Shown here: in pieces, positions 14,975-37,944 of the stretch
How the letters are laid out: every line of letters starts with the position of its first letter
Position numbering within the stretch: the stretch's first letter is position 1
Origin: Cyanobacteria bacterium REEB459
GTDB lineage: Bacteria > Cyanobacteriota > Cyanobacteriia > Phormidesmidales > Phormidesmidaceae
Direction of reading: 5' to 3'
DNA: 57,525 nucleotides
Assembly (NCBI GenBank): GCA_018970085.1
Contig: JAGWXD010000019.1
Coordinates: 1 to 57,525 of the forward strand
Notes under the pieces: model-generated
What the model was told of the DNA's origin: nothing
Databases searched by the model: none
What the model saw: the letters and a program-made list of their open reading frames with translations, nothing else
Program-made: the position numbers and the translations under genes

Positions 14975-16546
14975 TTAAGCCAGGCCGCGCCGGCCGTCCG
15001 GTAGGATTGTATACCAGTTAACCTCAGCCTTAGCCAATTGCTCGTCGCTAATTTGGGCCCTGGTCAGATTGGCCCCGCACAGATTAGTGCCGTGTAATCG
15101 GGCATTGGATAAACTAGCACCGCTCAGGTTGGCACCCCGCAGGTCGGCTTTCTCCAGATTGGCACCATGGAAATAGGCTGCCGTTAATCTGGCATCTCGC
15201 AAATTAGCAAAACTAAGGTCGCACCAGCCAAAATTGGCCCGACTCAGGTCTGAATTTTGGAAATTAGCCCGGCATAGCTTCGACTGGTGGAAGTTAATGT
15301 CAGGGATCGCGGTATGGGAAACATTCAGACGCTCCAGGGTTTGGCCAGAAAAGTCTTTGCGCCCCTTCAGGTATCGTTGTTTGATCTCATCGCCAGAGAG
15401 GGGAGTCGCCTTAGCCGGGGATGGCTGGGCAGGGCTGGAGGGAACCCCATAACCACTGAGATGGGAGGGGCGAGAGCTGGAGCTGCTGCGTTCCCGTCGA
15501 GCCCGAATGGCCGCCGCCAGACGAGAGGAGGGGGCTCCCCCCCGACTATCGGAATTGGCCGAGGGGGAGGCCGCCGCCCGACCAGCTCCAGTGGACCCCG
15601 GGCTAGGGGGGAGAGACATCGCCATATTTTGAGCCAGACTATCTAGATAGGGTTCTAGATCTAAATCTCGCAGCACACTCTCGGTATTTTCGTAGCGACG
15701 GCTAACGGAAATTTCTAGCATTTTGTGGAGTACGGCGGCAAAGTGGTCACTCACCTGCACCTGATCGCGCCAGATCAAGTTGGCCGTACCCGGGTGATAG
15801 TTTAGGTCCTTAGGGGATTTCGCCGATAACAAATAGATACAGGTTGCCCCCAGGGCGTAGATATCACTGGCATAAACTGGGCGCATAGCCATCTGCTCAG
15901 GTGGTGCATAACCAGGGGTACCAACCGCGTAGGCCGTGAGGGCGGTTTGATCAGAGACAGCAACCTGATAGGGATTGACTTTTTCTTTGACGGCCCCAAA
16001 GTCAATCAGTACCAGTTTTTTATCTTGAACCCTACGAATAATATTGGCTGGTTTAATATCCCGGTGGATAACCTGATGATCGTGGAGATACTGTACGATG
16101 GGCAAGATCTCGCTGAGGAATTGCTTGACGCCTTCTTCAGTAAAGGGACCACCCCGTTTAACCTCTTGTTGTAGGGTCGCTCCGTTGATAAACTCTTGAA
16201 CTAGAAAAAACCCCTGGTCTGTCTCAAAGTAACCCAGTAGGCGAGGCAGCTGGGGATGATCACCGATTTCTCCCAGGATCTTTGCCTCTCGCTCAAATAA
16301 ATTTCGCGCCATATCCAGCATCTGCCCCGCTTCGGCGGAGGGTCGCAGTTGCTTGATCACACAGGGAGGCTTGCCGGGTAGGGTAATATTGCGAGCTAGA
16401 AAAGTTGCCCCAAATCCCCCTTGCCCCAGGGACCGCAGGACGCTGTAGCGGTCTTGCAGCAGTAAGGTGCCACCACAGGACTGACATTGATGGGCAGTGG
16501 TGGCGTTTTTGGGATGGGCACAATTCGGATTGATACAGTAGCTCAT
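14975..16546 (-). CDS. spkB: Serine/threonine protein kinase with zinc-ribbon-like N-terminus and pentapeptide repeats (SpkB-like)
   Basis: The protein has 523 residues. Cys4, Cys9, Cys21 and Cys24 form a zinc-ribbon-like head. The kinase domain has the glycine loop GQGGFG (41-46), Lys65, HRDIKPAN (161-168) and DFG (182-184). A Ser/Pro/Arg-rich linker spans 310-380. Residues about 415-500 are pentapeptide repeats of the A(D/N)LxxA type. This layout matches Synechocystis SpkB, linked to oxidative stress and phosphorylation of the glycyl-tRNA synthetase beta subunit. I chose ATG 16546 because MSYCINPNC begins the conserved head; the upstream start would add 11 unrelated residues. Confidence 0.88.
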   Translation of the reverse strand: MSYCINPNCAHPKNATTAHQCQSCGGTLLLQDRYSVLRSLGQGGFGATFLARNITLPGKPPCVIKQLRPSAEAGQMLDMARNLFEREAKILGEIGDHPQLPRLLGYFETDQGFFLVQEFINGATLQQEVKRGGPFTEEGVKQFLSEILPIVQYLHDHQVIHRDIKPANIIRRVQDKKLVLIDFGAVKEKVNPYQVAVSDQTALTAYAVGTPGYAPPEQMAMRPVYASDIYALGATCIYLLSAKSPKDLNYHPGTANLIWRDQVQVSDHFAAVLHKMLEISVSRRYENTESVLRDLDLEPYLDSLAQNMAMSLPPSPGSTGAGRAAASPSANSDSRGGAPSSRLAAAIRARRERSSSSSRPSHLSGYGVPSSPAQPSPAKATPLSGDEIKQRYLKGRKDFSGQTLERLNVSHTAIPDINFHQSKLCRANFQNSDLSRANFGWCDLSFANLRDARLTAAYFHGANLEKADLRGANLSGASLSNARLHGTNLCGANLTRAQISDEQLAKAEVNWYTILPDGRRGLA

Positions 16547-16789
16547 TCGACCTGGCAAGTATGTATCAAAGCAAAGCAAAAGAAATCACTTTTGGCAAGG
16601 ATGGCAGCAACCCTCAACCAGGGGAAGGGAGTTGACGCCAACATAGGAATGATAAAAGCATCACCTTTAACCAATCCGACTACGTAGTTTAATTATTCCC
16701 TTTTTTCGACGATAAATAAAGGTGCCTGGGTCTTACTTATAGCCCCAGAATCTTAGCCCCAGAAGCCACGGCTGGGGTACTCCCAGGGG

Positions 16790-21448: not shown

Positions 21449-21572
21449 ATAGATAGTGATAATTCTGACCCCTTTAACAGGCATAGAGCGAGCCAAAAAA
21501 TCTGACAGACCCTGCTTGTACCTATTAATCGGCCTTCTATACCTATGGCCCAAGGTCTACACGCTAAACCCT

Positions 21573-21600
21573 ACTACTATGGCTTTACTACTATGGCTTT
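21573..21600. repeat. 14-bp perfect tandem duplication at a start codon
   Basis: ACTACTATGGCTTT is repeated exactly at 21573-21586 and 21587-21600. Each copy carries an ATG, and the second supplies the likely DUF2939 start. Since 14 is not a multiple of three, the duplication changes which upstream ATG is in frame. Confidence 0.88.
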
Positions 21601-22603
21601 AGCATCCTCTACTCACCCTAAGTCACCTATAGGCTGGATGATTCCCGCCGTTGCTCTCACCGTTGGTGCCTACATCGCCTGGCCCTACATCTCGGTGTGG
21701 CAGCTATATTCAGCCCTGCGATCGCAGGATGCCGATGCCCTCACTACGCGCATCGATTTTCCCTCCCTGCGTACATCCCTCAAGGATCAAGTCAATGCCT
21801 TGGTGATGGCAAAGGCGGTAGATAACCAGCAGATGGCGGATAATCCCTGGGCCGGTCTGGCGGTAGCCGTCTTACCCAAGATCGTCGACTCGATGATAGA
21901 TGCCTATGTAACGCCGGCCGGGGTTACCCAGCTATTTGAGGCCAATACCTTCAACGGAACAAGCCCGACTGGGAAACCCCAGACATCGGCCCCGCAACCA
22001 GACCAGTTGAAAGACATCAAGTTTGCCTTTTTCTCCAACCCCAGTCGGTTTCTGCTGAAGACTAAAGAGGGTGATTTTGTCTTCAGGCTGAAGGACTGGA
22101 CATGGAAATTAGCAGAGGTAACATTAACCCCCGCAACGATCCAAAGTATGGAGGCCAGAGTCTCAAAAACTAGCCAGCAAGGATCCGACTACAGTGACCC
22201 CATCCGTCAGGCTTCATCTGCAGATCCCAGGGTTGAGACCGGTGAGGGCCAATCCGCTACAGAAATTGAGTCCCCTACCCAGGAAGAGGCGGCCATATCT
22301 CTGGTGGAAAACTTGTATCATCTGCTTTCCGAAAAACAGTTTGATCAAGCCAGTTCCCTATATACCCCCCAGTTGGCTGATTTCTTTGCCCCTGGTTTTT
22401 TCAACAAGTTTGAACGGGTCACCGTTGCAGACCTAACAATCACCTCGAGAAGCAATGGTATTATTAACCTCTTAGGAGAAAATACCTATGTTTATCGGGA
22501 TGGCTCAACCCAACGAGAAGCTCGTTCCTATACGGTCAGGCCTCTAGATGGGGAACTTAAACTAACTGCCTCAGAGTTTATCAAAGTGACCAAGCCCAGA
22601 TAG
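21593..22603 (+). CDS. DUF2939 family protein, membrane-anchored
   Basis: From the ATG at 21593 the protein has 336 residues. One membrane anchor (IGWMIPAVALTVGAYIAWPY) is followed by a DUF2939 domain with the family phrases SVWQLYSALRSQDADALTTRIDFPSLRTSLKDQV and VTPAGVTQLFE. A polar linker at about 205-250 is followed by an NTF2-like C-terminal region of about 90 residues (LYHLLSEKQFDQASSLYTPQLADFF). Function is unknown. An in-frame ATG at 21545 adds 16 residues but is in frame only because of the 14-bp duplication, so I prefer 21593. Confidence 0.82.
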   Translation: MALASSTHPKSPIGWMIPAVALTVGAYIAWPYISVWQLYSALRSQDADALTTRIDFPSLRTSLKDQVNALVMAKAVDNQQMADNPWAGLAVAVLPKIVDSMIDAYVTPAGVTQLFEANTFNGTSPTGKPQTSAPQPDQLKDIKFAFFSNPSRFLLKTKEGDFVFRLKDWTWKLAEVTLTPATIQSMEARVSKTSQQGSDYSDPIRQASSADPRVETGEGQSATEIESPTQEEAAISLVENLYHLLSEKQFDQASSLYTPQLADFFAPGFFNKFERVTVADLTITSRSNGIINLLGENTYVYRDGSTQREARSYTVRPLDGELKLTASEFIKVTKPR

Positions 22604-22652: not shown

Positions 22653-22807
22653 ATGCAGTCTCTGGGGTGAATAGGGTAAGCTTGTATCGCTGGCAGCTAG
22701 GCCTTTAGGCCCCATAATTGGATAAACTCCAGTAAAGGCGCGGAAACAATCAAAATAGAGATTAACTATTCCCGTGGACTTTGCCAACCCTTTCCAGGCT
22801 CAAACCG

Positions 22808-23260
22808 ATGGCTGAAACCCCTAATTCCCCCGTTGTCTCCACGGCGGCCCCAACCGTTGATGTACTGTTTGATCAGGCGATCGCGCAGTACAAAGCTGGG
22901 GCTGACCCGGTAGGGTTAGTGCCGGTCTTTAAAGACATTTGCGATCGCGCCCCCCGCAGTAGTGCCGCCTGGGCCTGTCTGGCCTGGCTCTATCTGCTGA
23001 CTGACAAACCCGACAGTGCCCTGAGGGCAGCTCAACGGGCGGTTAAATTAAATCCCCAGGATCCCCAGGGCCGGGTTAACTTGGCCCTGGCCCTGCTGGA
23101 GGCCGGTAAACCTGGAGTGCGCCCCCACATTGAAGTGGCGGGTCAGATGATGGCAGCGGTGGCGGACCTGCGTGCCGAAGTCATGGATAGCATTGCCGAT
23201 GGCCTGGCCCGTAAACCGGGCTGGCCCAGCCTGGAACGGGTAAAGCAGTGGTTAACCTGA
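22808..23260 (+). CDS. Small TPR-repeat protein
   Basis: The protein has 150 residues from ATG 22808; a TTG at 22781 would add nine. Residues 15-110 hold two to three tetratricopeptide units (AWACLAWLYLLTDKPDSALRAAQRAVKLNPQDPQGRVNLALALLEAGKP). The C-terminal 40 residues are helical. Such proteins are scaffolds without enzymatic activity. It is separated from the DUF2939 gene by 204 bases and converges on the hydrolase gene, so it is probably transcribed alone. Its partner is unknown. Confidence 0.85.
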   Translation: MAETPNSPVVSTAAPTVDVLFDQAIAQYKAGADPVGLVPVFKDICDRAPRSSAAWACLAWLYLLTDKPDSALRAAQRAVKLNPQDPQGRVNLALALLEAGKPGVRPHIEVAGQMMAAVADLRAEVMDSIADGLARKPGWPSLERVKQWLT

Positions 23261-23347: not shown

Positions 23348-24262
23348 CTAGTAGCCAGCCCAGTGCCGTACCCACTGATTAAAGCTATCTCCATCTTCAT
23401 CGTATAGACAGTGACCCGCCCCCTTGAGATACTTGAGGGTGAGGTTAGGGCTCAGGTCTTCTAGGGCTGACGCCATCGCCACGGGCAGCACCCGGTCGCG
23501 ATCACCCCACAGCAGCAGGGTGGGCAGGGCCAAATGGCGTAGCATCGCCTGAATGGAGGGACTAAAGTCGGGGTTACAGCGAGACCTGACCAGATAACAC
23601 AGGGCTCTGGCTGCTCCTGGCTGTCGGGGTGGCAGGGCAAATAGACTCAATAATTCATCGTCTACCCGGTCTGCATCGAGATAGACACGACCCAGCACCC
23701 ACCGTAAACATGCCCGTTGCCGCACCAGCTGAAACAGCGGCCGAATCAACAGGGGGGTAGCCACCAAGCGTTCTACGGTAAAGGCGATATGGGCAATCCA
23801 CCCGGCAACTAGATCCTGACGGGCAGCGGCCAGGGGCAGGGTGACTAGAATTAACCGGCTGAGCTGGGCTGGTTGCTGGTGAGCTACGGTTAGAGCCACC
23901 AGGGCCCCCAGGGAATGGCCTACCAGAATTACGGGGCGATTGATGACCGCCGCCATAAAGTCTTGTACCTGAGCGGCCCAGAGCTCGGCGCTGTAGAGGG
24001 TAGGAGGCTTTTCTGTATCGCCAAAACCCAGTAAATCGAGGGCGTATACCGGCGCCACCTGGCTCAAGGGGGCCAAATTCTGACGCCACTGGTTCAGGTT
24101 GGCGCCGAACCCATGAATCAGCAGCAAAGCTGGCTGGTCTGGCCGCCCGGGTCCTGGGTGAAACCAATAACGCACCCGCCAGCCCCGCCAGTACCAGAGG
24201 CGCTGATGGCCTGACTGAGTGAGGGGTAGGTCTAAACTGGCCAGACAAGAATGGCTAGGCAT
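23348..24262 (-). CDS. Alpha/beta hydrolase
   Basis: The protein has 304 residues with a complete triad: the nucleophile elbow GHSLG, the acid in LLWGDRDRVLP and the base in GAGHCLYDE. The oxyanion motif is LLIHGFGANLNQWRQN. Similar cyanobacterial and plant-plastid hydrolases include esterases, haloperoxidase-like enzymes and chlorophyll or pheophytin hydrolases, but the substrate cannot be named. It is the last gene of a minus-strand run, 33 bases after the cNMP-binding protein gene. Confidence 0.9.
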   Translation of the reverse strand: MPSHSCLASLDLPLTQSGHQRLWYWRGWRVRYWFHPGPGRPDQPALLLIHGFGANLNQWRQNLAPLSQVAPVYALDLLGFGDTEKPPTLYSAELWAAQVQDFMAAVINRPVILVGHSLGALVALTVAHQQPAQLSRLILVTLPLAAARQDLVAGWIAHIAFTVERLVATPLLIRPLFQLVRQRACLRWVLGRVYLDADRVDDELLSLFALPPRQPGAARALCYLVRSRCNPDFSPSIQAMLRHLALPTLLLWGDRDRVLPVAMASALEDLSPNLTLKYLKGAGHCLYDEDGDSFNQWVRHWAGY

Positions 24263-24295
24263 GGCTATTTAAAGGTCCTGGGGCTGGGGGGTCTT

Positions 24296-24805
24296 CTAAA
24301 GCGGTTCTGGGGTCGGCAACAGGCCGCTGCTCAGCCTCCCCTCTGGACTGACTGAAGGGTCATGACGACTGGTTTTCAGGTGATTGAGTTCTTGATTAAG
24401 TTCACGGATACGCCGGGACAGGAGGCGAATAATATTCAGGGCAATGCCGGGGGTCTCATCCATCGCCTCATAGAGTTGCTGTTGGGTGAGTACCAAACAC
24501 CAGCAGGGTTCCAGGCTGGTAACCGAGGCCGAACGGGGCTCAGCATCAAACACCGACATCTCTCCAAAGCAGTCACCGGCCTTAAGGTGAGCTACTGACT
24601 GGGCCTGCAGGTGAACCCTGACCTGGCCCGAGACCAAAATATACATGGCCCGACCCTCTTGCCCTTCGGTCAAAATCGTTTCACCAGGGTCAAAATACAC
24701 CTCCTCCATAATGGCAGCCAGGCGCATCAGGAAATCATCCCGCAGTTCTCTGAAAATGGGAACCTGGCGAATGAATAATAGGCGATCGAGGCTACTCAGC
24801 AGCAT
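24296..24805 (-). CDS. Cyclic nucleotide-binding domain protein
   Basis: The protein has 169 residues. Residues 10-125 are a cNMP-binding domain. The phosphate-binding cassette FGEMSVFDAEPRSASV keeps both the Glu and the Arg needed to hold the cyclic phosphate, so true cAMP or cGMP binding is likely. A short helical tail follows, with no DNA-binding helix-turn-helix, so it is not a CRP transcription factor. It starts 29 bases after the transporter-HEAT gene, in a different frame. It is plausibly a regulatory subunit for that membrane protein, possibly fused to it in some relatives (inference). Confidence 0.9.
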   Translation of the reverse strand: MLLSSLDRLLFIRQVPIFRELRDDFLMRLAAIMEEVYFDPGETILTEGQEGRAMYILVSGQVRVHLQAQSVAHLKAGDCFGEMSVFDAEPRSASVTSLEPCWCLVLTQQQLYEAMDETPGIALNIIRLLSRRIRELNQELNHLKTSRHDPSVSPEGRLSSGLLPTPEPL

Positions 24806-24834
24806 GACATCGGCAGCAGGGGGAGGGGGAATCG

Positions 24835-27816
24835 CTATCCCTTCAGATTATAGGTTGCCATCAGGTGGTTAACCTGGGCCACCACCAGGGGATTGGGATC
24901 GGCCTGCATCAGCGGCAAAATCGACTGCAGGGCGCGGGGAGAGGCGGTTGCTACGTAACTGAGTACGGCCTCGCGCACAAACCCGGTGGGATGGTTGAGC
25001 AGGGCCAGGGTAGGCTCGCTAGCCAGGCTCCAGTGGTTGGCCCGGGCAACATGGAAACAGCAGGCCAGGGTCCAATCGCAGAGCAAGTGCCGTAAATCCA
25101 GCAGGCGACGCAGGCGATCTCGGGGGCTGAGGGGGCAGTACTGGTAGAGGTTGGGGCTGGTGAGGCTGAGATATCTGAGTTTTTCCTCCGCAGGGCGGCG
25201 GTCTAGAAGAATTAAGATGGCCTTCTTACTGGCGATTGTCAGGGTATGGTCGAGAATTTCCAGGCCCCTAGCCAGGCGGGAGGCTGAACCAGTCAGGTAG
25301 CCCTGGGCGGCCTGAATGGTTTCCACCGGAGAGACGAGCCGTAACACCATCAATAGGCGATTAGTGGCGTCACTCTTAGCCCCTTCCACCGCCCTGGCCA
25401 GCAGGTCGGCTTCTAGCCCCGCCACCAAGCCTGTCTGTAGATCAACCTGGGCCGCCAGCAACTCCGCCAGTAGGGTCAGTTCGCTATGGATCAACTGTTC
25501 CAGCCCACTACGGCCCAACTCGCGATCCAGAACAGTGTCAATCAAGGGCGATCGTCTGACTCCGGTTTCCTGATAGATTTTTAGCACCACCGCTAGAATT
25601 CGCTGGCGATCGCTGCCCCAGGCTGGGGCTAGGCTTCTCACCAGGGTTTCTAGGGCCGCCAGACTGCCAATTTCCCCCATCAGCTGCCAGGCCTGCTGCC
25701 GCCCGCTATGGGGTTGGAAACTATCTAAGCCCAGGGTTTGCAACAGCGGTAGCACCTCATCTCCCAGGCTGACCAGGGCTCGCCGGGCGGCGCTACGGGT
25801 TGATTTGTAGCGCAGGGCCTGGAACAGGGCCGGGTAATAGCGACTGTACTGGGTGGCGGCGATCGCCCCCAGGATGGCCCGCCGTACCGGCAGGGAGGGG
25901 TCCTGCAAGAGCTTATCAATATAAATACTAAGGGACTCCATATAGGTGGCATCGGTCAGGGCCCGACAGCCCATCACCCGTTCCCGTTCTTGATCGTGAA
26001 CCAGCATTTTACGCAGCGTGGCCATGGCCAGCACCCGCTCCTGACGCTCCCCAAACCGCAGCATCAAGGCGGCCGCCGTACCGCGCACCGCAGCATCTAC
26101 CCGGGGCTGCAGGTAGGGGATCAGCTCTCTGACATCCTGGCTATCTTCCACCAGCCAGAGATAGCGTAGGGCCAGGGCAAAAACGGCGGGGTGCTGGCCC
26201 TGGGTCTGCTGCTTTAAGGCGCGAATCGCCGCCGCAAATTTAGGCTGAGGATGGGCCAGCATGGCCTCTAGGGCCTGGCGCTGGAGCGGAGGCGCCAGGC
26301 TGCTCAGCCGAGGAGCCAGGACCTCTGCCACCTCCGTGGGGGCAATGTGGGACAGCAGCTCAATACAGTATTGCTGGTCCCTAACCGTCTGGGCCCGGGC
26401 CATGGCCTCTGTCAAGGTTTGTCCCATGGCTCGCCGGTCGGCATCGGAAACACTGGCCAGCCCCTGGCCTTCTCCCTGCACCAGTAGATCCAGGTAGCGC
26501 GATCGCAGTTGTCGAGTCAGGCCAACCCACACCAGGGCCAGCAACACCGTACCCAACAAAAAGAACCGGGCCAGGGGCAGGGGGATGGTCAGGCCAGAGC
26601 CGCGGCCAAATTGCAGCACCGCCAAAATTACCGCCCCCGTCATACCCAGGGCCAGGGGTTCGGCAATGCCCCCCACCAGGGACTGAATAGTGGCACGAAT
26701 CTGGCTGGCAATGGGTTGAAACAGCACAGGACGAATGGTGGTGACCAGGGTGTAACGCAACCATTCATCTACAAATTTCAGGCAAATCAACCCCATAAAC
26801 AGGGCGCTTCCCCCCAGAAAAAAGGGAAAACTGGCCATCAGGGTAAGCAGCCCCAGGGTCACCACAGCCAGGGGCAGCAGCAGGGCAGCGTTGAATACCC
26901 CCTCTTTTTCAATCAGGCGGCTGGCACTAAACCATTGGCTAAACAATTCAACCAACCCCAGCAGGCCACTAAAAATTCCCAAAAAAGTGGCGATCTGATT
27001 AACTTCCATGGAGAGTTCCAGCTGGTTAAAAAACTGGAATTCCGTGGAAAACAATAACACCTGGGATAGTACAAAAAAACTAAACAGTAGTCCGACATAG
27101 GCACCGATAGACCCCTGCAAACGAGGGCGCAAGGGATGGTGTTCGAGGTCTTCGGCTTGGTGCCTGGGGGAATCTGGAAAGGCGTGCTCGTAGCTATGGG
27201 TGAGGTAATAGAGCAGGGCTGCACCCACCAGCATTACCCCCAGGGCCAACAACATAACATTGGCTAAACCAATCACCCTGAGTAAAAGGTAAACAGAAAA
27301 GCCGCTGATCATATCGGCAATTTGGGCCCCACTACTAATGATGGGAAAGGCCCGTTTGATCTCCCGAATATTAAACAACTGGTTGGCGGTGACTGACACA
27401 TTCAGGTCATTGAAGCTGTAGACGGCTTCGATCCAAAGGCGCAGGCCAAAAATTGTCATGGCAACAAAATCAGGCTGACTCAAGCCCCAACGGCAGGGAA
27501 TAATCGGCAGGGCCATTAACAGGGCAATTAACACCAGCACCCGCCTCAGGGGCAATAGGCGCTGTAACCACGAGTAAATGGCACTTAAGCCTAGTCCCAC
27601 GACGCCACTGAGGATGTAGATCCAGGGCAGGTTGGCGGCTCCGTACTGACCCAGAAAAAGGGCGGCAGAACTGACATCCAGCCATAGAATGCCCATGGTG
27701 GTAGCGGTGTAAGCGCTGAATAGCAGCAGGGTGCGTTCCTGCTCCTCGGGCCGCAGGTTGATTAGATCCAGCATCCGTTGCTGGATGCCCTGGAAGGGAG
27801 AGACGGGGCTAATCAC
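24835..27816 (-). CDS. ATP/ADP-carrier-like (Npt1/Npt2) membrane protein with C-terminal HEAT repeats
   Basis: The protein has 993 residues. The first 440 have about 11-12 membrane segments and the opening LRPEEQERTLLLFSAYTATTMGILWLDVSSAALFLGQYG, like the nucleotide-transporter-like MFS proteins of free-living bacteria. From about residue 455 to the end run many helical pairs of HEAT type (LLSHIAPTEVAEVLAPRLSSL, VRGTAAALMLRFGER, VRRAILGAIAATQY). Transport of nucleotides is not proven for such fusions. The start is a GTG at 27816; ATG at 27774 (Met15) is the alternative. It follows xseB by 23 bases and precedes the cNMP-binding gene by 29. Confidence 0.85.
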   Translation of the reverse strand: MISPVSPFQGIQQRMLDLINLRPEEQERTLLLFSAYTATTMGILWLDVSSAALFLGQYGAANLPWIYILSGVVGLGLSAIYSWLQRLLPLRRVLVLIALLMALPIIPCRWGLSQPDFVAMTIFGLRLWIEAVYSFNDLNVSVTANQLFNIREIKRAFPIISSGAQIADMISGFSVYLLLRVIGLANVMLLALGVMLVGAALLYYLTHSYEHAFPDSPRHQAEDLEHHPLRPRLQGSIGAYVGLLFSFFVLSQVLLFSTEFQFFNQLELSMEVNQIATFLGIFSGLLGLVELFSQWFSASRLIEKEGVFNAALLLPLAVVTLGLLTLMASFPFFLGGSALFMGLICLKFVDEWLRYTLVTTIRPVLFQPIASQIRATIQSLVGGIAEPLALGMTGAVILAVLQFGRGSGLTIPLPLARFFLLGTVLLALVWVGLTRQLRSRYLDLLVQGEGQGLASVSDADRRAMGQTLTEAMARAQTVRDQQYCIELLSHIAPTEVAEVLAPRLSSLAPPLQRQALEAMLAHPQPKFAAAIRALKQQTQGQHPAVFALALRYLWLVEDSQDVRELIPYLQPRVDAAVRGTAAALMLRFGERQERVLAMATLRKMLVHDQERERVMGCRALTDATYMESLSIYIDKLLQDPSLPVRRAILGAIAATQYSRYYPALFQALRYKSTRSAARRALVSLGDEVLPLLQTLGLDSFQPHSGRQQAWQLMGEIGSLAALETLVRSLAPAWGSDRQRILAVVLKIYQETGVRRSPLIDTVLDRELGRSGLEQLIHSELTLLAELLAAQVDLQTGLVAGLEADLLARAVEGAKSDATNRLLMVLRLVSPVETIQAAQGYLTGSASRLARGLEILDHTLTIASKKAILILLDRRPAEEKLRYLSLTSPNLYQYCPLSPRDRLRRLLDLRHLLCDWTLACCFHVARANHWSLASEPTLALLNHPTGFVREAVLSYVATASPRALQSILPLMQADPNPLVVAQVNHLMATYNLKG

Positions 27817-27839
27817 GGGGATGGGGGCCGGGTGGGTGC

Positions 27840-28058
27840 CTAGGGATCACGCAGAGTTTCAATTAATACATCAACCTGGTGTTGTTTTTCCTGCAGAAAG
27901 GTTTCGCACTGCTGCAAGGCCGTCACCGCCTGCTGAAATTGGCTGAGGGTCTCGGTTAGGGACAATTGCCCCGATTCTAAATGGGCAATGGTGGCTTCTA
28001 GCTGGGCAATGGTGGCTTCGTAGCTCCAGTCGGGGGGAGAGGCGGATCGGCGGGGCAT
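27840..28058 (-). CDS. xseB: Exodeoxyribonuclease VII small subunit
   Basis: The protein has 72 residues. Its two helices (YEATIAQLEATIAHLESGQLSLTETLSQFQQAVTALQQCETFL) are the XseB hallmark. It binds XseA to form exonuclease VII, which degrades single-stranded DNA. AGGAG lies just upstream of the ATG at 28058, which decides that start over a TTG at 28079 that would overlap xseA. It is directly downstream of xseA. Confidence 0.93.
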   Translation of the reverse strand: MPRRSASPPDWSYEATIAQLEATIAHLESGQLSLTETLSQFQQAVTALQQCETFLQEKQHQVDVLIETLRDP

Positions 28059-28072
28059 AGAAATCTCCTGAA

Positions 28073-29329
28073 CTAGCAATCATCGTCGGGTTCCAGGGCA
28101 ATTACCTGGACACTCAGTTGGCCTTTAGCCAGTTGGATGCGCAGAGTTTGCTGGGGAGTCAGGCTGGCGACATCGGTGACCACCTGGCCGCTGAGGGTTT
28201 TGACCAGGGCGTAGCCCCGCTGTAACACCAGGCCAGGCTCAAGGTTGCGCAGACGGCTATCCAGGCTGGCCTGGCGATCGCTGGCCTGCTGCCATTTTAC
28301 CTGTAAGCTCTGGCGCAACCGGGCTTTGATTTGCCCCAGGTAGGCCAGTCGTTGCTGCAGTTGTTGGTCCAGCCGCTGCCGCAACAGCCGTTGCCGCAGT
28401 CCTTCCAGATCCAGGTAGCGATTCTGCAACTGATGCTGTACCACTGTGTGGAGACGATGGCGGCGCTCAGCCTGGGCCACCACTAGATCGGCTAGGGCCG
28501 GTACGGCGGCGATCGCGGCGGCGGTAGGGGTATGGGCACAGACATCGGCGGCCAGATCGGCCAGGGATTCATCCCGTTCGTGGCCGATGCCGGTCACCAC
28601 CGGAATCGGGCAACTGGCCACCGCCCGTACTACCCGTTCATCGTCAAAACACTCTAGATCCTCGCTGGCACCCCCGCCCCGAGCGAGAATCAGCACCTCT
28701 GCTCGGCCATCCATCGCCACCCGATGGATGGCCTGAACGATGGATAGGGGGGCCGTTTCTCCCTGGACCGTGGCGGGGGAAAACAACACCTTTAGGCCGG
28801 GGTGGTGGTGCCGCAGCGATCGCTGAATATCTCCCCAAGCCGCGGCTTGGGGAGAGGAAACTACCGCAATAGCCCGGGGCAGGGGCGGCAGGGGTCGCTT
28901 AGCGGCTGCATCAAACACCCCTTCCATCTGCAGCCGTTGCTTCAGCTGGCGATAGCGCCAGGCCCTGAGCCCATCCCCACTGGGCAAAATTTGCCAGACC
29001 GTGAGCTGGTAGTTGCTACGCTGGGGGTAGACCTTAACCGTACCCAATAAGGTGACCTGGTCTCCTACCCCTGGCTGGGTAGCCAGACGGTTCCACTGGC
29101 TGCGCCAGGCCACACAGCCAATGGTGGCCCTGGTATCGGTATCGGTAAGGTTAAAGAACAGGCCCTTGGGGTGCTGGGTGACACTGGATACCTCCCCTAC
29201 CACCCATACCTGGTGCAGGACAGGGTCATTTTCCAGCACCGCCTGGATGTAATCCACCAGCCCCCCCACGCTCAGAGGAGGGGCGCTCAGAGTTGACTGG
29301 GAAAAGGTCATAGGGACGGAAAAAGCCAT
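28073..29329 (-). CDS. xseA: Exodeoxyribonuclease VII large subunit
   Basis: The protein has 418 residues from ATG 29329 (ATG 29311 is an alternative). An OB-fold occupies residues 10-110 (VWVVGEVSSVTQHPKGLFFNLTD). The catalytic domain follows with ILARGGGASEDLECFDDERVVRAV and PVVTGIGHERDESLADLAADVCAHTPTAAA. A coiled coil and the C-terminal QRGYALV segment complete it. The frame is open to 29572, but that extension has no family similarity. It heads the five-gene minus-strand run and diverges from the DUF3536 gene. Confidence 0.93.
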   Translation of the reverse strand: MAFSVPMTFSQSTLSAPPLSVGGLVDYIQAVLENDPVLHQVWVVGEVSSVTQHPKGLFFNLTDTDTRATIGCVAWRSQWNRLATQPGVGDQVTLLGTVKVYPQRSNYQLTVWQILPSGDGLRAWRYRQLKQRLQMEGVFDAAAKRPLPPLPRAIAVVSSPQAAAWGDIQRSLRHHHPGLKVLFSPATVQGETAPLSIVQAIHRVAMDGRAEVLILARGGGASEDLECFDDERVVRAVASCPIPVVTGIGHERDESLADLAADVCAHTPTAAAIAAVPALADLVVAQAERRHRLHTVVQHQLQNRYLDLEGLRQRLLRQRLDQQLQQRLAYLGQIKARLRQSLQVKWQQASDRQASLDSRLRNLEPGLVLQRGYALVKTLSGQVVTDVASLTPQQTLRIQLAKGQLSVQVIALEPDDDC

Positions 29330-29534
29330 GGGCAAGGGTGGTTTAATCCTACCGCAGTTGACCCAGCCCCGGGCCAATGGCGGCAGGGGTGAGTTTGTAA
29401 ACAGGACCTTAAGATTAGGGCGACCAAGAGCAGGAATCGCTATGGTATGGGGGAGATTAGTCAAGTCAGGGAACCATTCGATTTCAGATTTTGCCCTGTA
29501 CCGATTGAGTTTTTCCAATTTATCTACAGCCTTT

Positions 29535-32162
29535 ATGACAAATTTATCCAGTCCTTCTGCAGGACGCGCCACGGTGGCTGGTGAGGGGTTAGGTGCGGCG
29601 GTAAGTACGGGAGTATTTGTCTGTATTCACGGCCATTTCTATCAGCCCCCCCGAGAGAACCCCTACCTGGATGCGGTGGAACGCCAGCCCAGTGCGGCTC
29701 CCTGGCATGACTGGAATCAGCGCATTCACCATGAGTGCTACCGTCCCAATGCCTACGCCCGCATTCTTAACCACCAGGGCGAGGTGGTTCGCATTGTCAA
29801 TACCTTTGAGTACATCAGCTTCAATGTGGGCCCCACCCTGCTGAGCTGGATGGAGCGCTACGATCTAGAAACCTACCAACGGATTCTGGCCGCCGATCGC
29901 CACAGTTGCGATCGCCTCAATGGCCACGGTAACGCCATTGCCCAGGTCTACAACCATATGATTTTGCCCCTGGCCAATGAGCAGGACAAAATCACCCAGG
30001 TACGCTGGGGTATCGCCGACTTTCGCCGTCGCTTTGGTCGCCATCCCGAAGGTATGTGGCTGGCGGAAACAGCGGTGGACTACCCCACCCTGGCGGTGCT
30101 GGTGGAGGAGGGCATTCGCTTCACCGTGCTGGCCCCATCCCAGGTGCAGCGCTGTCGGCCCCTGGCGGGCCAGGCAGAAGGCCAGCCCTGGCAGGAGGTG
30201 GGGGGTGGACAAATTGATCCGACCCGGCCCTACCGCTGTTTTCTACCCCAGACCGATGGTCGCCCCGATCCAGACCGATTTATTGATGTCTTTTTCTACG
30301 ACGGCCCGATCTCCCGCGATATGGGATTCAACGATGTGCTCAGCGCCTCTGCCCACCTCACCGGGCGCATTGGCCAGGCCATCCACGGCGACCACCGCCC
30401 CTGTCAGATGATCTCGGTAGCCACCGATGGAGAAACCTTTGGTCATCACCGCAGCGGGGCCGAGAAGACCCTGGCCTACGCCCTGACCGAAGAGTTTCCC
30501 CGACAGGGCTGGACGGTCACCAACTATGCCCACTACCTGGCCACCCATCCTCCCACCTGGGAAGCCGAACTGAAACCGGTCACAGCCTGGAGTTGTAACC
30601 ACGGGGTAGACCGCTGGCGAGCCGACTGTGGCTGCGGCGGCGGTGGGGGTTGGCAGCAGGGCTGGCGTCAGCCCCTGCGAGAGGCCCTGGACTGGCTACG
30701 GGATCAACTGGCTCACCGGTTCGACCAGCAGGGGCGGCAGTTCCTGCGCGATCCCTGGGTGGCTCGCAATGCCTACATTGAGGTGATTGGCGATCGCAGC
30801 GAGGCTACCCTACAGCGCTTCTTTGCCGACCATCAGGTCCGGCCGCTATCGGCCAGCGACCGGGTAACCACCCTGCAGTTGCTGGAAATCCAGCGCCATG
30901 CCCTGCTCATGTACACCAGTTGTGGCTGGTTCTTTGAGGAAATCTCTCGACCAGAGGGCACCCAGGTGCTGCGTTACGCCGCCCGGGCCCTGGAACTGGC
31001 CGGAGAAGTGGCTGGGGTAGACCTGGAGGCCGAATTCCTGAAACGCCTGGCCCTGGCCCCCAGTAATATAGCCAGCTTTAAAGACGGGGCCGGTGTCTAC
31101 CGGGCCCTGGTCAAGCCGGCTCGCATCTCTCTAGAACAGGTGGCCGCCCACTACGCCATTGCCTCCCTGTTTAGTGATCACCGCCGCCAGCAGGCAGTGT
31201 ATTGCTATATCGTTGACCAGCAAGACTATCGTCGCCAGCGCCTGGGGCCCATGTCCCTGGCGGTGGGTTGGGTCGAGATCACCTCCACCATTACCCGAGA
31301 GAGCCTAAATTTGGCCTTCACCGTAGTGCACCTGGGGGGATGGGACTTTCACTGCTGTATCCGCAGTTTTCATTCACGTCTGGAGTATATCCAGGCTCGC
31401 CAGGAACTGTTTAACTGTTTAGAGCAGGCCAGTGCGGCCCAAACTATTCTGGCTATGAATCGTAGCTTTGGCCCCCGCAGCTACAGCCTGCAAGACCTGT
31501 TTGCAGAGGAGCGTCACCGCATGATGCAGTTGCTATCTCAAGAGACCCTGCTGCGACTGGATCAACTCTATTCCCAGGTATACCGGGATAACTACGGGGT
31601 TTTAAAAGCCTTCCACCGCGATGGCTTGGCGGTGCCCCAGGAATTGCAGGTGGCGGCTGATATTGCCCTCAGCCAGCGCACCCTGGAGGCGCTGCAGGCC
31701 CTGGAACGAGACATTCACCACGACCATGGCAGTCTCCTGGCCCAGGCAGAGGATGCTCTCCACGACCTGGAGGCGATCGCCACCGAGGTCGGCTATTTCC
31801 ATGCCCGGCTCACCTTACCCAGGGCCAAGGCAATGCTAGAGGGCTTAATCGGGCAATCGGTGGGAAAGATCCTCAGCCAACCAGCCCCTGGGCTGCTGGC
31901 CACCGATGTGACCTGGCTGGGTCGCTTAATCCACCTGGGCCACCAACTGGACCTGGGGCTATCTCTAGAGCGGGCCCAGGAGTTGTACTACCAGTACCTG
32001 CATCACCAGGTATTTGATCAATTGCAGCAGGCGATTCGCCATGGCACAACCCTGGCCCCAGGGCAGCGTAGTCGCCTGCAGGAAATTCTGCGGCTGGGCC
32101 AATACCTATCGATGGATGTGGCTAAGGCCCAGGCCATTCTGGAACGGGTTCAAACCAGTTGA
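29535..32162 (+). CDS. DUF3536 / glycoside hydrolase family 57-like protein
   Basis: From the ATG at 29535 the protein has 875 residues. The first 350 resemble a GH57/polysaccharide deacetylase (NodB-like) barrel, opening with CIHGHFYQPPRENPYLD and including EGMWLAETAVDYPTLAVLVEEGIRFTVLAPSQ and SVATDGETFGHH. A Cys- and Gly-rich loop with SCNHGVDRWRADCGCGGGG follows. The remaining half is the helical DUF3536 region. In bacteria GH57-like proteins act on alpha-glucans such as glycogen; the substrate here is unproven. The frame is open from 29328 but the first 69 codons look non-coding, so the later ATG is chosen. Confidence 0.88.
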   Translation: MTNLSSPSAGRATVAGEGLGAAVSTGVFVCIHGHFYQPPRENPYLDAVERQPSAAPWHDWNQRIHHECYRPNAYARILNHQGEVVRIVNTFEYISFNVGPTLLSWMERYDLETYQRILAADRHSCDRLNGHGNAIAQVYNHMILPLANEQDKITQVRWGIADFRRRFGRHPEGMWLAETAVDYPTLAVLVEEGIRFTVLAPSQVQRCRPLAGQAEGQPWQEVGGGQIDPTRPYRCFLPQTDGRPDPDRFIDVFFYDGPISRDMGFNDVLSASAHLTGRIGQAIHGDHRPCQMISVATDGETFGHHRSGAEKTLAYALTEEFPRQGWTVTNYAHYLATHPPTWEAELKPVTAWSCNHGVDRWRADCGCGGGGGWQQGWRQPLREALDWLRDQLAHRFDQQGRQFLRDPWVARNAYIEVIGDRSEATLQRFFADHQVRPLSASDRVTTLQLLEIQRHALLMYTSCGWFFEEISRPEGTQVLRYAARALELAGEVAGVDLEAEFLKRLALAPSNIASFKDGAGVYRALVKPARISLEQVAAHYAIASLFSDHRRQQAVYCYIVDQQDYRRQRLGPMSLAVGWVEITSTITRESLNLAFTVVHLGGWDFHCCIRSFHSRLEYIQARQELFNCLEQASAAQTILAMNRSFGPRSYSLQDLFAEERHRMMQLLSQETLLRLDQLYSQVYRDNYGVLKAFHRDGLAVPQELQVAADIALSQRTLEALQALERDIHHDHGSLLAQAEDALHDLEAIATEVGYFHARLTLPRAKAMLEGLIGQSVGKILSQPAPGLLATDVTWLGRLIHLGHQLDLGLSLERAQELYYQYLHHQVFDQLQQAIRHGTTLAPGQRSRLQEILRLGQYLSMDVAKAQAILERVQTS

Positions 32163-35040: not shown

Positions 35041-35112
35041 GCGGGTATAGCTCAGTGGTAGAGCGTCACCTTGCCAAGGTGAATGTCGCGCGTTCGAATC
35101 GCGTTACCCGCT
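35041..35112 (+). tRNA. trnG: tRNA-Gly (GCC)
   Basis: The 72-base gene folds fully: acceptor GCGGGTA/TACCCGC, D arm GCTC/GAGC, anticodon stem TCACC/GGTGA with loop TTGCCAA (anticodon GCC), and T arm GCGCG/CGCGT around TTCGAAT. The discriminator is T and no CCA is encoded. The last base overlaps the stop codon of the convergent gene. Confidence 0.97.
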
Positions 35113-37871: not shown

Positions 37872-37944
37872 AGCTGGTGACAGGATTCGAACCTGCGACC
37901 GGCTGATTACAAATCAGCTGCTCTACCAGCTGAGCTACACCAGC
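37872..37944 (-). tRNA. trnT: tRNA-Thr (UGU)
   Basis: The 73-base gene folds as acceptor GCTGGTG/CACCAGC, D arm GCTC/GAGC, anticodon stem GCTGA/TCAGC with loop TTTGTAA (anticodon TGT) and T arm GCAGG/CCTGT around TTCGAAT. No CCA is encoded. It lies 29 bases after the stop of the response regulator on the same strand and may share its transcript. Confidence 0.97.

Follow-up and report, generated by a model that had tools for sequence, protein, structure and literature searches.

Fusions of an NTT carrier domain to HEAT repeats, with an adjacent or fused cyclic-nucleotide-binding domain (cNBD), were reported by Major, Embley and Williams (2017; PMC5381601), who noted two cyanobacterial clades. 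That paper also reports NTT-HEAT proteins of Chlamydia and oomycetes, and proposes that cyclic AMP (cAMP) might adjust the uptake of ATP; Gruber and Haferkamp (2019; PMC6995639) cite it. For the plastid carrier AtNTT1, published accounts state that ATP/ADP transport requires K155, E245, E385 and K527 (PMC10654386, PMC3306366), with both K155E and K155R losing ADP binding, K527E losing ATP binding, and E245 being assigned to translocation (PMC3306366). Searches of the open-licence literature found no experiments on a cyanobacterial NTT-HEAT protein, nor any report of its cargo or ligand. This work concerns a pair of genes of this kind in Cyanobacteria bacterium REEB459, within contig JAGWXD010000019.1 (positions 1 to 57,525, the whole of which is called the window): one encodes a carrier, in which a membrane domain is fused to a HEAT solenoid, and the other a free-standing cyclic-nucleotide-binding domain protein, hereafter the cNMP protein.

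Such carrier-cNMP pairs were already described in 2017, and as both the pairing and the idea of control by cAMP are published, the window pair is a further member of a known, uncharacterised system. The resemblance extends to the order of the domains, with NTT preceding HEAT in one chain, to the adjacent cNBD gene, which lies 29 bases downstream on the same strand, to the cyanobacterial distribution, and to the suggestion of tuning by cAMP. However, the available text of Major et al. speaks of ATP uptake, which is doubtful for the window protein given the lysines it has lost, and that text neither mentions K155 nor counts joint losses, whereas this analysis gives both a residue mapping and counts. 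What is new here is the co-occurrence of the two genes across genomes, the structural match to NTT1, the loss of the lysines, and the negative results for the neighbouring hydrolase and exonuclease VII genes. Our preferred explanation, held with moderate confidence, is that carrier and cNMP protein together form a two-subunit transporter of NTT fold under cyclic-nucleotide control, the cargo of which would be something other than canonically exchanged ATP/ADP.

The carrier combines an NTT fold with a HEAT solenoid

Within the window carrier, HEAT_2 is the sole Pfam domain over cut-off (8.3e-10). The protein scores 12.5 bits against TLC (PF03219; E 0.064, cut-off 21), and 15.7 bits against the NCBIfam NTP/NDP exchanger model (cut-off 387). 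As the sequence falls under the TLC cut-off, the label of "Npt-type" carrier needed further evidence, and the assignment to the NTT family was made on three grounds. Firstly, a profile built from ten carrier membrane domains had AtNTT1 (9j3j; E 5.8e-7) as its only match in the PDB under an E of 1. Secondly, a search of the phylum found carrier orthologues that exceed the PF03219 cut-off, with 33.3 bits in G307 and 30.5 bits in G095. Matches over this cut-off occurred in 18 of the 386 genomes, part of them being other NTT-like proteins; a search of the window's own genome with PF03219 found no match, a silence that is uninformative given that the control genomes were equally silent. Thirdly, an AlphaFold2 model of the carrier, built from 46 sequences (mean pLDDT 84.5, pTM 0.56), can be read as twelve membrane helices between residues 23 and 449, followed by a HEAT-type helical solenoid of approximately 530 residues (about 458-988).

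When this model was submitted to Foldseek, the top five matches were all NTT1 chains, with E values from 2.0e-8 to 2.7e-5. In VIA, the plastid and chlamydial NTT1 structures (9j3j, 9j3l, 9j3m, 9j3n and 9j3o) matched with Z scores from 31.6, for the chlamydial carrier, to 35.1, for ATP-bound AtNTT1 (9j3l; root-mean-square deviation 2.9 over 414 residues); the best other MFS transporter, representing the next family, reached 26.5. The remaining rows of this comparison, OCT1 and LacY among them, were read as general MFS matches. The modelled N-terminal domain is an NTT fold fused to a HEAT solenoid, and by this architecture the window protein belongs with the NTT-HEAT family of Major et al. The preliminary description of this locus, made from the sequence alone, had proposed a carrier-like protein joined to about 500 residues of HEAT repeats; both fold and fusion stand, although the sequence of the window protein alone did not suffice for TLC, and the modelled solenoid is slightly longer. 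Compared with NTT1, the membrane fold is alike, but the identity over the aligned part is 13-17%, the HEAT residues are an addition, and the charged residues required for nucleotide transport are conserved in part.

Both nucleotide-binding lysines are replaced

A single offset of 84 places all four of the AtNTT1 residues on the 9j3j chain, from which hhalign mapped K155 to Tyr67, E245 to Asp137, E385 to Glu259 and K527 to Leu390 of the window carrier. The probability of this alignment was 97.4 in the forced global mode with two NTTs, and 79 to 87 with AtNTT1 alone; with the latter, two of the three modes cover K155 and give the same mapping, while the strictest omits this residue. HMMER offered Met392 as an alternative equivalent of K527. 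The replacements extend beyond this genome: among 86 aligned rows, Tyr occupies position 67 in 85, and an acidic residue is at position 137 in 83 and at position 259 in all 86, while position 390 is basic in a single row and position 392 in none. Nor does any of these rows have a Lys or Arg anywhere in columns 63-80. Some genomes are present twice in this alignment, and the 80 rows that are distinct at the 99% level yield 79/80 for Tyr67, 77/80 and 80/80 for the two acidic positions, and 1/80 and 0/80 for a basic residue at 390 and 392. Nine rows had been left out of the count (four sequences at the level of the phylum, two distant ones and three closer ones). Each of these carries Tyr or Phe at 67 and an acid at 259, and neither 390 nor 392 is basic in any of them; position 137, by contrast, is acidic in just two.

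Two of the four charged residues characteristic of the NTT family are therefore kept in kind in the window carrier, as the acidic pair, and both lysines are replaced; by alignment, the orthologues have likewise lost both binding lysines and largely kept the acidic pair. These results bear on the possibility that the protein is an exchanger of ATP/ADP, or of other nucleotides, tuned by cAMP as Major et al. suggested. Such an exchanger would suit the NTT fold, the acidic equivalents of E245 and E385, and the fifth-helix motif ANQ...E.KR.(Y/F)P that is common to the carrier and AtNTT1. Yet the equivalent of K155 is almost invariably Tyr, with no Lys or Arg in the alignment columns surveyed around it, and that of K527 is Leu or Met, depending on the mapping, at the very residues whose mutation is reported to abolish the binding of ADP and ATP respectively (PMC3306366). 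With both of these lysines replaced, ordinary ATP/ADP exchange is doubtful, and we consider this explanation unlikely. The loss of the lysines counts against canonical ATP/ADP exchange, but leaves the assignment of the NTT fold intact.

The cNMP protein is a bare domain with an intact cassette

The cNMP protein matches the Pfam cNMP_binding domain (PF00027) at 3e-22, with 78.8 bits against a cut-off of 27.5, and no output domain was found in it by Pfam. Its phosphate cassette, FGEMSVFDAEPRSAS, carries Glu82 and Arg91, as the preliminary description had recognised in calling it a free-standing protein with both residues intact. Across 19 aligned sequences, the window's included, Gly81, Glu82 and Arg91 are invariant, and the consensus of the cassette is FGEM[SA][VL]FD[AS][EQ]PRSAS. 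The mean column identity in the same alignment is 86% for the core (residues 2-141), versus 36% for the tail. The best sequence matches in the PDB were the regulatory domains of kinases G and A, and CRP-type regulators, with all of which it shares a spacing of nine residues between the Glu and Arg of the phosphate cassette. Unlike these proteins, it has no DNA-binding, kinase or channel part, being a bare domain with a variable tail. A cyclic nucleotide can probably be made by this organism, to judge from the two nucleotide cyclase (PF00211) matches over cut-off in its own genome.

Some cNBD folds work in the absence of a ligand. The cNMP protein could accordingly be insensitive to cyclic nucleotides, and serve the carrier as a subunit for its structure or assembly, which would be consistent with the strong conservation across the whole of the 140-residue core, well beyond the cassette. 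However, a ligand-free subunit would not need the Glu82 and Arg91 that are preserved without exception, and there is little probability that this alternative is correct.

The two genes are linked and retained together

The association of the carrier with the cNMP protein was assessed in the best 80 of 398 confirmed matches to the carrier profile, a set biased to close relatives of the window. In 64 of these 80, the cNMP gene is the next gene after the carrier and has the same orientation; the count is 53 of 63 among the loci whose downstream DNA extends for 1 kb or more. A second sample of 40 carrier loci, in which many genomes are common to the first, gave 29/40 (15/20 and 14/20), and one of these 29 (L070) has a broken cNMP frame. 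In a draw of 388 genomes from the class, the carrier was detected in 203 (E at most 1e-5) and the cNMP orthologue in 198 (E at most 1e-35): both were found in 192 genomes, the carrier alone in 11, the cNMP protein alone in six, and neither in 179. The corresponding Fisher p value of 1e-87 ignores relatedness, and serves as description only.

The 11 genomes scored as carrier-only are of several kinds: G057 lacks a carrier-profile match at 1e-6, G072 and G344 have distant relatives, and G059, G199 and G299 have partial or broken cNMP genes, that of G199 starting 27 bases past the carrier match before being cut by the end of the contig. Two others of the 11 have remnants of the carrier, G062 (C21:17753-17974, 74 positions) and G147 (C1:3554161-3554349, 63 positions), one of them with two in-frame stops, and neither genome has a cNMP orthologue at 1e-35. 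In genus g10, all seven genomes lack a cNMP orthologue, and the profile detected no carrier in them. These remnants and absences are read as a few joint losses, against a background of co-retention.

The two proteins can also be a single chain. The preliminary description had advised looking in other cyanobacterial genomes for fused carrier-HEAT-cNMP proteins, and one such protein (L197), a distant cyanobacterial relative, is present in G344, with TLC (27.8 bits), HEAT_2 (52.0 bits) and cNMP_binding (65.8 bits) all over their cut-offs. Together with the adjacency and the co-occurrence, this supports an evolutionary tie between the cNMP protein and the HEAT carrier. Only L197 and the published cases are counted as fusions. 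A frame of 1132 amino acids in G283 (L192), spanning both carrier and cNMP protein, was dropped from this evidence: its close relative G253 (L191) has the carrier and cNMP genes in separate, overlapping frames, and the DNA of the two genomes differs in the length of a T run (five against six T), such that the single frame of G283 may be a sequencing error, or else a real fusion or frameshift site.

If the cNMP protein docks on the carrier, conservation offers an indication of where. The mean column conservation of the HEAT part is 0.72, versus 0.65 for the membrane domain, as expected of a surface that contacts a partner. Of the thirteen blocks compared, those in HEAT at 561-700 and 901-960 rank highest (0.78 to 0.82), compared with 0.73 for the first half of the membrane domain; either of these is our best guess at a putative docking site.

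Several observations weigh against a functional coupling of the two proteins. The draw of 388 genomes is rich in the window's own family, and the genes of an operon co-occur in any case. The cNMP gene is away from the carrier, within 7 kb, in L127, L130 and L186, and on another contig or at a far position in G002, G003, G046, G064, G067, G070 and G178, while the last three of the carrier-only genomes, G088, G113 and G264, have the carrier with no cNMP match by profile at 1e-20, albeit in assemblies of 500 to 1230 contigs. Finally, the six cNMP-only genomes come from a single genus, and in the absence of a carrier their cNMP relative is a more distant one, so that domains of this type serve other partners too.

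Four of these six genomes were inspected. In L235 and L237, from genomes in which no carrier was found, the related lone cNMP gene and a transporter gene have 11 bases in common; in L238 and L240, a similar transporter stands beside the matched cNMP region. For L235, Pfam identifies the transporter as a cation-efflux protein (PF01545, 4.2e-43); the others were judged by eye. This suggests that lone cNBDs pair with other transporters as well.

It is also conceivable that the carrier and cNMP genes are merely co-transcribed, without physical coupling, as parts of an old neighbourhood with ilvH and infC. A common cyanobacterial order is ilvH, sometimes with a hydrolase, on the opposite strand, and then infC, carrier and cNMP gene. 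By Pfam names, the 58 relatives whose upstream DNA extends for 3.3 kb or more have infC upstream of the carrier in 36 cases, ilvH in 21 and a hydrolase in 15. Against this, the cNMP gene still follows the carrier in nearest relatives that have no infC upstream (such as L109 and L112-L124), it is retained when located elsewhere, as in G002, G003 and G046, and the fused form in L197 exists. Simple co-transcription is on balance improbable.

Layout of the locus and its neighbouring genes

Both genes lie in a series of five on the minus strand (Table 1). The open reading frames (ORFs) and the starts chosen here reproduce the preliminary description of five consecutive genes, with gaps of 33, 29, 23 and 14 bases from the hydrolase toward xseA. 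The identities of the neighbours are clear from Pfam and NCBIfam in the case of the exonuclease VII subunits (Exonuc_VII_L 1e-80, Exonuc_VII_S 2.8e-13), and the hydrolase matches Abhydrolase_1 at 9.2e-28. A consensus scan of the region found two terminator-like sites, versus 6.2 expected by chance, and four promoter-like sites, versus 2.8 expected; a single transcript across the region is possible.

Table 1. Genes of the minus-strand series, in order of position within the window
Feature	Position	Strand	Remarks
Alpha/beta hydrolase	23348..24262	-	304 aa; adjacent here, but not conserved with the pair
Free-standing cyclic-nucleotide-binding domain protein (cNMP protein)	24296..24805	-	169 aa; no output domain by Pfam; cassette with Glu82 and Arg91
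Carrier: NTT-fold membrane domain and HEAT solenoid	24835..27816	-	993 aa; GTG start
xseB, exonuclease VII small subunit	27840..28058	-	ATG start; longer TTG start at 28079
xseA, exonuclease VII large subunit	28073..29329	-	ATG start; longer GTG start also listed

The carrier and its partner had been placed inside an exonuclease VII operon, and this setting is not conserved. A tblastn search at E 0.01, run without a bit-score filter, recovered both xseA and xseB in the window, as a control, and neither in the 80 or the 40 loci of relatives; upstream of the carrier, 1.8 kb or more of DNA is available in 63 of the 80, and the other 17 could not show xseA fully. Exonuclease VII was accordingly rejected as a part of the system.

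The hydrolase fared little better. Of the linkage envisaged between the three downstream genes, that of carrier and cNMP protein is found in relatives, but that of the hydrolase is not. Its closest relatives, orthologues at 60-63%, are present in all six same-genus genomes tested, yet never beside the carrier: the distance is about 30 kb in G039 and 1 to 4 Mb in G022, G023 and G043, and the two genes are on different contigs in G034 and G042. In five of these six genomes, the neighbour of the orthologue resembles the window gene at 14975-16579. A same-strand hydrolase lies directly downstream in one of the 55 relatives of the 80-relative set with enough DNA, and it is a different one, whereas divergent upstream hydrolases are more frequent, as noted above. 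In the 40-relative set, seven have a divergent hydrolase, 37-39% identical to that of the window, upstream of infC and the carrier. Within the window's own genome, the best match of this upstream hydrolase is the window hydrolase (37%, 224 bits); three further hydrolases there score 175-185 bits (36-40%). When the window hydrolase is compared with G286, the gene beside the carrier is its best match. Because of these two results the window and upstream hydrolases are possibly orthologous, but the arrangement in the window is not the older one.

A three-part module of carrier, cNMP regulator and cargo-processing hydrolase, for which these matches and the upstream hydrolases might be cited, is highly improbable, as the closest relatives of the hydrolase are off-site in every same-genus genome tested, no upstream hydrolase was found in 43 of the 58 relatives, and the orientation and side of the gene differ between the window and the older arrangement. 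The hydrolase was rejected as a conserved third part of the system on these counts, and both it and the exonuclease VII genes are outside the system, being neighbours in this genome.

Other features were observed around these genes. A different alpha/beta hydrolase is immediately downstream of the carrier in L039, L040 and L132, and the genomes of the first two have their cNMP gene elsewhere. In the window, a plus-strand ORF of 944 amino acids (29328-32162) has a first possible start that overlaps the chosen start of xseA by two bases, and its true start is possibly further downstream. On the other side of the series, a protein with a DUF2939 domain (21545-22603, plus strand) is followed by a small TPR protein at 22781-23260. 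Two tRNA genes are at 35041-35112 (plus strand) and 37872-37944 (minus strand).

Discussion

The pair is probably a signal-controlled transporter. In the two-subunit arrangement that we prefer, the NTT-fold N-terminal domain would act as a secondary transporter, and the HEAT solenoid would offer the small cNMP protein a docking scaffold in the cytoplasm. The binding of a cyclic nucleotide, most likely cAMP, to the cNMP protein would then alter transport through the solenoid. As the two nucleotide-binding lysines are gone, the cargo would more likely be a phosphorylated or charged metabolite than ATP/ADP exchanged in the canonical manner. A broader version of this arrangement may be entertained tentatively, in which a gated carrier of two subunits no longer handles ATP/ADP, and the detachable, HEAT-docking cNBD is a general plug-in regulator of transporters; this idea arises from the related cNBD gene that overlaps a cation-efflux transporter gene in genomes without a detected carrier.

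The pair is kept in approximately half of the sampled cyanobacterial genomes (192/388). The loss of the lysines is a new constraint on its cargo, and predicts that canonical ATP/ADP exchange does not occur. If the pair is a second-messenger-gated transporter, then the lone cNBD gains a role, and cAMP would be linked to membrane traffic in photosynthetic bacteria. The same finding would bear on the NTT-HEAT proteins of Chlamydia and oomycetes.

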